From the NCBI GenBank assembly GCA_016208255.1, contig JACQYK010000019.1, positions 1 to 44,920 of the forward strand: a stretch of DNA of 44,920 bases, written 5' to 3'. The notes beneath the pieces were generated by a model that did no database searches, was not told the origin of the DNA, and saw only the letters and a list, made by a program, of their open reading frames with translations. Each line of letters starts with the position of its first letter. Within the stretch, counting starts at the first letter, position 1. This DNA comes from Deltaproteobacteria bacterium. Lineage in GTDB: Bacteria; Desulfobacterota; RBG-13-43-22. Positions 36,020 to 39,925 of the stretch are shown here, piece by piece. The position numbers were made by a program, and so were the translations under genes.

Positions 36020-36132
36020 GTAAAAAGTCGTTGGAACCCCAAAAACGTCATTCCGGCGAAAGCCGGAATCCAGGAACTTCAATAAGTTAAAACCCCTGGA
36101 CCCCGGTTTTCACCGGGGTGACGACTTTTTAC
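36020..36132. repeat. GTAAAAAGTCGT-ended palindromic element
   Basis: A 113-bp element with perfect 12-bp terminal inverted repeats GTAAAAAGTCGT (36020-36031) and ACGACTTTTTAC (36121-36132). Inside are GTCATTCCGG...CCGGAATCC and CCCCGG...CCGGGGTGAC. This is the most complete copy of the GTCATTCC class. The rest of the 517-bp gap 35660-36176 holds only the heptanucleotide arrays. Confidence 0.8.
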
Positions 36133-36176: not shown

Positions 36177-37306
36177 TCAAAGCCGGGAATCTCGATACAC
36201 CTGCATGATCTGGGCCGGGGCCCGGTTTTCACGCAAAAGAGCGGTCATGAGGCGCATGGGGCGATCGACATGCTTGAAGAAGGCCTTATATCCTTTGCAC
36301 AGATAGTTCAGCCCGCCCTCCCCCTGGGGCGTCTTGATGAACCGGTCTTTGGGACAGCCGCCATGGCAGGCGAAACGGAACCGGCACTCCCGGCAATAGC
36401 GGGGCAGCAAGTCCAGTTTGTCCTGGCCGAACTTTTGTTGTTTGGCCGAAGTGACCATTTCGATCATCGGGACCTCGGTGATGTTGCCCAGGAAATGGTC
36501 CGGGGAGACGAAGTGGTCGCAGGAGTACATATCCCCGTTATGTTCCATGGCCAGGGTCATCCCGCAGGTCGGCGCGAATAGGCATAAACCGGGCATTTCC
36601 CCGGCCCAGTTGGCCAGGGCTACGTCGAACATATTGACAAAGGTCTCCCCCACATCGCGGCGCACCCATTCCTCAAAGACGGCGATCAAAAAGCGGCCGT
36701 ACTGTCCGGCGGTGACGGAGAAATCGCTGACCGCCCGGCTTCCAATCCCGCGCTCGACAATGGGGATGAACTGGAGGAAGCGGATTCCCAGGTCATCCCG
36801 CAGAAAGCGGGAGACCTCCACAGGATTATCTCCAGGCCCTGGAGCACCCGATCGAAGGTCGGCCGGCCCTGCTTGTCCCGCCGAAAGGCGTCGTGCCTCT
36901 GAGGGGGACCGTCGATGCTGATCCCCACCAGGAAGTTATGCTCCCGGAAAAAGGCGGCCCACTGGTCATTGATCAGCGTGCCGTTGGTCTGGATGGTATT
37001 TAGAATAGTCATTCCGGGGCGGCGATATTTTTCCTGGTATTCCACAGACCGCCGAAAAAAATCCAGGCCCATCAGCATAGGCTCGCCGCCCTGCCAGGCT
37101 ATGGTCACCTCGGGGGCCCGGTGGGCTTCGATGAGCCGGCTGATATAGGTCTCCAGCATCTGGTCCGTCATGCGGAAGGCGCTGCCGGGGTAGAGCTTCT
37201 CCTTGGAAAGGTAGAAACAGTAGGTGCAGGCCAGGTTGCAGACCGCCCCCCTCGGTTTGGCCAGAAGGTGAAAGGCCGGGGGGGCGGTCGGGTTGATCGA
37301 CGTCAT
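36177..37306 (-). pseudogene. Anaerobic sulfatase maturase-like radical SAM protein, broken by deletion and frameshift
   Basis: The first part (ATG 37306, AAGAAGG before it) carries NLACTYCFYLSKEKLY (CxxxCxxC-type radical SAM cysteines), WQGGEP and LNTIQTNGTLI, and runs properly to GLEIIL near 36833. It then reads into an unlike tail. The second part resumes in another frame at NPVEVSRFLRDDLGIRFLQF and continues with the SPASM cysteines (CGMTL, CDHFVSP, CRECRFRFACHGGCPKDRF) to the stop at 36177. Intact proteins have about 20 more residues (a HGVEFNTLTTV-like segment) at the join. So a deletion of about 60-70 bp that is not a multiple of three broke the gene. No sulfatase gene is visible. Confidence 0.85.
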
Positions 37307-37341
37307 GGTGAAACCTTCTTGAAAATCCAATGATTTTATCC

Positions 37342-37552: not shown

Positions 37553-38260
37553 TTATTTGGGCCGCTTCCAGAAAGGTCCGGTTTTGCCGAGTTCTTTCAT
37601 GGTTTGGACCATCTCCCGGCCGTATTCAAACATATGGGAGACATAGTCTTCATCCATCCGCCGCCTGAAATAAGAACCGGAAAAAAGTTTCATCATATCA
37701 GGTAAGGGGGTGATGCCTTCCTCGGTGCCCTGGACATAGGAGGCCCAGTTCTTAACATGCGCTTCCGACCGGAAGCAATTCATGGTGCTTCAGGCAAAGC
37801 TCGCATCTTCCATCCATTTCCAGAAAGGCACGGAGACGTAGGTCTTATACCCCGCCGATTCCTGGTCATTCAGAATCTTTCCGTCCTGGACCACGACCTG
37901 AAGGGATTCGCCGCAATCCAGACAGGGGAAATCGATGGTTACTTTCTTGCCGGGAAAGAGCCAGCAGACCGCCAGCGATTCAAAGGCTCACTGGCCAAAC
38001 CATTTCTGTTGCCCGTCAATGGTGATGCGGTACTGGGTGGGGAGATTGTTAAAAGGGGCGAAGGAAACGATGTAGTCGGTCCGGGGGTAAAGCCATCCCG
38101 GTATTCCGGCGGAAAAGAGGTCATGGAGGGTTTTCCTCCCTTCTTCCACCGGAAGGCCGAGTTTAGAAGCCAGTTCCGTGTAAAAAGGGGCCTGGCCCGT
38201 TTCCACCATGCGCTTCATGATGGTATGAAAGGACTGGTCTAATAGTGTGGGACTACTCAT
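37553..38260 (-). CDS. MerB-like (organomercurial lyase fold) protein with two in-frame TGA, predicted Sec91 and Sec157
   Basis: Reading both TGA codons (37990-37988 and 37792-37790) as selenocysteine gives 235 residues, starting at ATG 38260 with AAAGGAGGAACACCC before it. Residues 1-70 are a winged-helix-like start, as in MerB. The core QYRITIDGQQKWFGQ-U91-AFESL aligns with the MerB block before Cys96-Ala-Leu-Asp99; CLDC at 113-116 is near MerB Cys117; FA-U157-STMNCF with HVKNWASYVQG aligns with MerB Cys159 and the segment after it. MerB Asp99 corresponds to Glu94. Known chemistry: MerB cleaves C-Hg bonds with Cys96, Cys159 and Asp99. Selenols bind mercury very tightly, but the substrate here is not proven. 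Neighbouring genes are decayed, so nonsense mutation is the main alternative. Confidence 0.8.
37761..37776 (-). promoter_or_regulatory. SECIS-like hairpin after the second TGA
   Basis: In the minus-strand message GCTTCC (37776-37771) pairs perfectly with GGAAGC (37766-37761) around the loop GGTC (37770-37767). The loop begins 20 nt after the TGA (19 nt between). E. coli fdhF has its AGGUCU apical loop at nearly the same distance. Confidence 0.75.
37960..37976 (-). promoter_or_regulatory. SECIS-like hairpin after the first TGA
   Basis: GCTGGC (37976-37971) pairs with GCTGGC (37965-37960) through four Watson-Crick and two G-U pairs around the loop GGTCT (37970-37966). There are 17 nt between the TGA and the loop. 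The loop GGUCU is identical to the SelB-bound part of the fdhF SECIS. Confidence 0.72.
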
Positions 38261-38389
38261 AGGGTGTTCCTCCTTTCTTGTGTTTGGAAAGCTGCCCTCT
38301 CATTAATTAACAAGAGCATAAAATAGGTTAAATCACTGAAACATTTTTTCACCGCCCACTCGTCAGGATGAAAGGGAGACTCGTTCGAG

Positions 38390-38502: not shown

Positions 38503-38532
38503 CCTTTGCGGCTCTGCGGTGATACGAATCTA

Positions 38533-38800
38533 TTAAAGACTGAGCCCTCCGTCCAGATAAAGGGTTTGACCGGTCATATAGTCGGAGGCCGACGAAGCCA
38601 GATAAAGGGCCAGCAGGCCCACTTCCCGCTGGCTTCGGCGATTTCATGAGCCGTGTTGACTACATAACGGTCGGTCAGGGCATTAAGGGCAATATCAGCT
38701 CCGGCCTCGGCCAGAACCTGGGCGATTCCCTTGCCGATACCCCGGCCGGCCCGGTGATAAAAACAACTTTTCCTTTAATATCGTATTCCTTTGGCAGCAT
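38533..38800 (-). pseudogene. Short-chain dehydrogenase/reductase (FabG-like) remnant
   Basis: From ATG 38800 the start MLPKEYDIKGKVVFITG is that of an SDR. One base is missing in the glycine-rich motif: the next frame reads GRGIGKGIAQVLAEAGADI. This runs to EIAEAS, then jumps to LLALYLASSASDYMTGQTLY and LDGGLSL, the C-terminal block of FabG-like SDRs, ending at 38533. The catalytic Ser-Tyr-Lys part (about 150 residues) is lost. The gene is dead. Confidence 0.85.
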
Positions 38801-38839
38801 AGGGAACCTTCCTGATTAAAAAATTTGTAATCTTTGTCT

Positions 38840-39702: not shown

Positions 39703-39925
39703 AGACTCGTAAAAGTCACCGAACTTCGCATTATGTCATTTCGCGCTCGGCTTTGCCGAGCTGCAGGAGACTTCCAAACCGACTCCCTCAGAGAGTCTCC
39801 CCAAAAGCTCGACAAAGTCGCGCGGCAGGAAGCCGGGCCGGAATCCAGTAGATTAAGTCACTTAAAAATTTTCTGGACCCCGGTTTTCACCCCCGGATTA
39901 AAACTTTCCGGGGCAGGCTTGGTGA
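39703..39925. repeat. Degenerate GTCATTCC-class repeat with covarying hairpins
   Basis: Contains GCTCGGC/GCCGAGC (39745-39761), GACTCCC/GAGAGTC-type arms near 39780-39798, GGAATCCAG and CTGGACCCCGG...CCCCCGG. It is the main content of the 578-bp gap 39449-40026; elsewhere in the gap I see nothing. Confidence 0.65.

Follow-up and report, generated by a model that had tools for sequence, protein, structure and literature searches.

A gene on the minus strand of a 44,920-nucleotide stretch of DNA from a Deltaproteobacteria bacterium, an anaerobe (contig JACQYK010000019.1 of assembly GCA_016208255.1; the whole stretch is the window in what follows) almost certainly encodes, to judge from its sequence, a selenoprotein that belongs to the MerB superfamily, stands alone and has selenocysteine (Sec) at both catalytic cysteine positions. 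We read the product as an organometal lyase, probably one for methylmercury, in which two selenolates replace the cysteines of MerB, and we put the probability of this reading at roughly 60 percent. MerB-like selenoproteins as such are known. The new element is Sec at both catalytic positions, and this in two clades: clade A, to which the window gene belongs, and clade B, a different MerB-family protein.

Two in-frame TGA codons and their hairpins

The frame begins with ATG and runs for 235 codons to a normal stop, with internal TGA at residues 91 and 157 only (Table 1). The original prediction had counted exactly two TGA codons and no TAA or TAG without naming the strand. The count holds on the minus strand, the plus-strand reading of the same interval being broken by TAA and TAG stops. 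A change of genetic code is ruled out as an explanation, since TGA serves as an ordinary stop elsewhere in the window, where it ends eight of the 20 long open reading frames.

The source genome has three copies of the gene, each with two TGA codons, and about 60 homologues in other genomes (GTDB genomes were searched) keep TGA at both columns. The two-TGA pattern is far beyond chance because all of these share the same columns, which upholds the earlier view that random nonsense mutations were an improbable cause. Nearly all full-length homologues are TGA/TGA and the remainder have Cys codons; no third residue occurs at either site in the full-length rows covering the columns. A conserved in-frame TGA aligned with Cys of relatives is what a bacterial selenoprotein gene should display, as is a SECIS hairpin directly 3′ of each TGA, and the window gene has both features. 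In a family alignment of 53 sequences, which takes in Cys forms at 24 to 28 percent identity, residues 91, Glu94 and 157 never vary if Sec is scored as Cys; the family motif reads KWF[GA]QU[GA]FE[SA]LA ... CLDCG ... U[SA]xMNLFRS. Six Cys/Cys relatives (L023–L027 and L033) are about 240 to 300 residues long, most with a C-terminal extension, and likewise have Glu in place of Asp99; they are an uncharacterized MerB-like branch.

We regard as refuted the reading that the two TGA are nonsense codons of a pseudogene or come from a sequencing artefact. Nothing was found in its favor, and it is at odds with the identical TGA pair in dozens of genomes, with the conservation of the SECIS hairpins, and with dN/dS against the nearest relative, which is 0.17 before Sec91, 0.13 after Sec91 and 0.06 after Sec157. 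The gene contains no frameshift, and purifying selection acts downstream of each TGA.

Codon choice is constrained at the hairpins. In 45 non-redundant genes compared with ordinary usage nearby, synonymous change is frozen chiefly at codons +4 to +8 past Sec91 and +5 to +9 past Sec157, which are the codons that fold into the hairpins, and three positions directly beside Sec157 are likewise codon-biased. Within the frozen codons, for example, Phe is invariably TTC and Arg CGG, while Ser is TCG with few exceptions. Mean z scores for the hairpins relative to codon-shuffled genes are −1.67 (Sec91) and −2.44 (Sec157), against −0.07 for controls, and pairing holds in 99.6 percent of stem cells for the first hairpin and 98.4 percent for the second, with compensating changes; the Sec157 stem of the window gene itself departs from consensus by one such pair, T-A to G-C. 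The commonest loops are GGTCT for Sec91 and GGTC for Sec157; both hairpins have a GGUC loop. Two sister genes with Cys at site 91 (L075 and L083) have lost the first hairpin and retained the second, and in L083 both partners of a stem pair have changed (C-G to T-A), although this replaces Glu by Lys in the protein. The predicted SECIS hairpins, together with hairpin loss where Cys replaces Sec, are independent support for the Sec reading, and both TGA codons of the window gene almost certainly encode selenocysteine.

The machinery for this is in place. Its presence was a check set out with the original prediction, and tRNA-Sec (selC), selA, selB and selD are clustered on one contig of the source genome; selA, which lies between tRNA-Sec and selB, was identified by eye from that location and from its sequence. 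Other contigs contain one more selB, which is intact, and one more selD. One selD (L108, G000:C101:4705-5616) has a single in-frame TGA and is probably a selenoprotein gene itself; the other, without TGA, is on contig C31 near selA and tRNA-Sec. SelB is present in 347 of 395 Desulfobacterota genomes, and its co-occurrence with the family inside the phylum is therefore uninformative.

Table 1. Positions of the window gene, its parts and two loci elsewhere (window coordinates unless a contig is given)
Feature	Position	Strand	Basis or remark
MerB-family gene, 235 aa, TGA read as Sec twice	37553..38260	minus	frame, Pfam, homologue columns
Shine-Dalgarno AGGAGG	38269..38274	minus	8 nt 5′ of ATG, read from sequence
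TGA codon 91, predicted Sec91, place of MerB Cys96	37988..37990	minus	frame, PDB sequence alignment, homologues
Glu94, place of MerB Asp99	37979..37981	minus	PDB sequence and family alignments; invariant in the latter
Predicted SECIS hairpin for Sec91, GCTGGC-GGTCT-GCTGGC	37960..37976	minus	bases 15 to 31 from T of TGA
CLDC motif, Cys113 at place of MerB Cys117, Cys116 extra	37913..37924	minus	PDB sequence and family alignments
TGA codon 157, predicted Sec157, place of MerB Cys159	37790..37792	minus	frame, PDB sequence alignment, homologues
Predicted SECIS hairpin for Sec157, TGCTTCC-GGTC-GGAAGCG	37760..37777	minus	bases 16 to 33 from T of TGA
hgcA and hgcB of source genome (L114)	G000:C19, 152-2528		hgcA frameshift near codon 75, then hgcB; ArsR-type regulator precedes
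Clade B example locus	G001:C250:22640-23380		MerB-family gene, two in-frame TGA

The MerB fold and a proposed chemistry

Membership of the superfamily follows from a Pfam match to MerB (PF03243) at E = 2e-18, its 67 bits exceeding the gathering score of 27. An AlphaFold2 model made with the family alignment as input has a pLDDT of 96 and a pTM of 0.90. Its top 11 matches in the PDB are all MerB or MerB2; the best are crystal structures of MerB (3f2f, 3fn8) and MerB2 (5c17), with E values of 7e-10 to 1e-8 and TM scores of 0.57 to 0.61 by query length. With MerB, the mercury-detoxifying organomercurial or alkylmercury lyase (3f0o, 3f2f, 3fn8, 5c17), the window protein shares the fold (predicted here), an alignable catalytic domain, both catalytic Cys positions (Sec here), an equivalent of Cys117 and an acid three residues past the first Cys or Sec. 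The original prediction had set the two Sec residues on Cys96 and Cys159, CLDC near Cys117 and Glu94 in place of Asp99, and alignment with PDB sequences bears this out, Cys113 falling on Cys117 itself.

The differences are as plain. Where canonical MerB has Cys96, Asp99 and Cys159, the window protein has Sec91, Glu94 and Sec157; there is no Cys160, and identity is about 20 percent in the structural alignment. It scores 26.4 bits with the canonical MerB equivalog models (NF009710, NF033555), far below their cut-off of 193, which a canonical MerB control (L133) passes at 297.8, and the gene lies outside a mer operon context. SaoL, the MerB-like organometallic lyase of the SAO system (NF040728), is the best-scoring curated model, at 33.5 bits against a cut-off of 140, and reaches every one of the 53 aligned members, which no MerB model does. 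SaoL is likewise a MerB-like selenoprotein, but the neighbors of the SAO operon are missing around the window gene and no ABC transporter family recurs near clade A loci. We know of no proven substrate for SaoL. It has one Sec, in a CU motif, according to a 2026 review (PMC13188914), in contrast to the two at catalytic positions here, and it is also in the list of PMC9312934. We met no MerB entry besides it in that review.

A role in cleaving organomercurials or other metal–carbon bonds fits the fold, the residues and the association with HgcA described below. MerB holds the mercury of RHg+ with Cys96 and Cys159. With help from Asp99 the carbon receives a proton, RH is released, and thiols take over Hg(II). 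Selenolates have a higher affinity for mercury than thiolates do, and they are ionized at neutral pH. We propose that Sec91 and Sec157 would bind, as selenolates, the metal in an organometal substrate, methylmercury being the likeliest; that Glu94 would act in proton delivery as Asp99 does; that the metal–carbon bond would be broken by protonolysis; and that the metal would then be released to cellular thiols, selenols or sulfide. In anaerobic cells rich in sulfide, selenium could help the site to compete for mercury, and in mercury-methylating carriers the enzyme would reverse or limit the cell’s own methylmercury. Glu for Asp99 and the missing Cys160 may mean an altered chemistry.

Release is the weak point of the model, for very tight binding could make the protein a scavenger instead. 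As a scavenger or sensor it would use its two selenols to hold a soft metal (Hg(II), methylmercury or some other) with high affinity and no turnover. Sec at both sites and the extra cysteines of CLDC can all ligate soft metals, the gene stands alone, and the N-terminal part matches, weakly, LexA and other winged-helix regulators. Pure binding, however, needs no acid, and Glu94, at the acid position of MerB, is invariant across the family; we think this reading unlikely. Much less probable still is a redox enzyme in which the MerB fold is reused for a relay, diselenide or selenenylsulfide, made up of Sec91, Sec157 and CLDC. The protein does have a CxxC motif, and many bacterial selenoproteins are redox enzymes (PMC13188914), yet CLDC is gone from a two-Sec member (L032) and CxxC from part of clade B, with the Sec pair kept in both cases, and the conserved acid is better suited to protonolysis.

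Carriers, neighbors and HgcA

Clade A occurs in 24 of the 395 Desulfobacterota genomes sampled and, by record titles, in SAR202, Dehalococcoidia, Poribacteria and Lambdaproteobacteria. Its loci have no conserved neighbor: no family appears more than three times among 120 neighbor proteins, and we rejected a conserved operon on that ground. Mer families are absent from the 25 neighbor families listed, and MerA is above cut-off in two of 23 carriers, the source genome being one.

HgcA, the protein of mercury methylation, tells a different story. It is found in 19 of the 24 clade A carriers against 97 of the 371 other Desulfobacterota genomes (Fisher p = 2.6e-7), and within taxonomic families the link persists at an odds ratio of 8 (permutation p = 0.001); for clade B the count is nine of 14 carriers (p = 0.006) and for carriers of either clade 23 of 33 (p = 6e-7), all these figures coming from metagenome-assembled genomes with some contamination, with relatedness partly controlled and genome size uncontrolled. 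Five of the 24 clade A carriers lack an HgcA match, and most HgcA genomes lack the MerB-like gene. In the source genome hgcA is present but frameshifted in the assembly, hgcB scores over its cut-off, and there is also an ArsR gene (Table 1). This strong statistical link speaks against a MerB-type lyase for some other organometal or organometalloid, of tin, lead, arsenic or germanium, for which one could cite the carriers without HgcA, the absence of mer genes nearby, the name of SaoL, which leaves the substrate open, and the match of all 53 aligned members to the SaoL model above any MerB model. We hold such a lyase to be about as unlikely as the scavenger. Real, preserved across dozens of species and found mostly in bacteria with mercury-methylation genes, the protein is therefore a good candidate for an overlooked pathway of methylmercury degradation.

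Which anaerobes degrade methylmercury, and by what enzyme, has to our knowledge not been settled. Demethylation has been reported for sulfate reducers and for Geobacter (papers cited in PMC12997803). Some metagenome screens for merB require Cys96, Cys117, Cys159 and Asp99 (PMC8605020) and others the two cysteines (PMC9948709); the two-Sec form would be missed because standard gene calling cuts the gene in three and because Cys residues are demanded. The original prediction had thought the system not well described, and this stands for the two-Sec form, which has no entry in NCBIfam or in the consulted part of the table of the 2026 review (PMC13188914); the single-Sec relative SaoL is already catalogued. 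Haft and Gwadz 2023 and Haft and Tolstoy 2025, on SAO and novel selenoprotein neighborhoods, fall outside this comparison.

The surroundings of the gene offer some observations of their own. Downstream, at 36180-37330 on the minus strand, Radical_SAM and SPASM parts of one gene lie in two overlapping frames, and that gene is therefore frameshifted or mis-assembled. At about 38530-38810, on the same strand, is what appears by eye to be a degraded remnant of a short-chain dehydrogenase-like gene. The intergenic stretches at about 36040-36130 and 39740-39910 are alike (ttccggcgaaagccggaatcc and ccggttttcaccggggtgac) and resemble a dispersed palindromic repeat. An Rfam scan of the whole window gave no matches.

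A second two-Sec clade

Clade B was met when scanning carriers with the MerB profile. A profile built from four of its members finds it in 14 of the 395 Desulfobacterota genomes, in every case with two TGA codons (L118–L131). Its proteins, of about 247 residues, would have Sec at about 126 and 200 and Asp at about 129, so that Asp99 of MerB is kept; those tested score below the SaoL and MerB equivalog cut-offs. The two clades have in common Sec at both catalytic places, a SECIS at each, and the MerB family. They differ in that B is a separate clade, nearer canonical plasmid MerB. In a tree that includes no SaoL sequence, support is 100/99 for clade A and 100/98 for clade B. An AU test disfavors A and B as one clade (p = 0.029, a result weakened by long branches). 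The two-Sec state may have arisen by two gains, or by one gain with Cys reversions, and because long branches limit the test we leave both options standing.

It is possible, and we offer it tentatively, that two separate MerB lineages each turned both catalytic Cys into Sec and that both are methylmercury demethylases of mercury-methylating anaerobes, overlooked through gene calling and merB screens. If the enzymes are demethylases, estimates of methylmercury from counts of hgcA and merB would need revision. The family is also a natural test of what selenium contributes to a metal–carbon lyase, because Cys and Sec versions exist for each position.

The predicted hairpins of clade B are its own. 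The first is a near-invariant GCCCTTCGTGCAAGGGC and differs from the first SECIS of clade A; the second reads TTCTTC(C/T)GGTC(G/A)GAAGA, in which C-G and T-A swap together.
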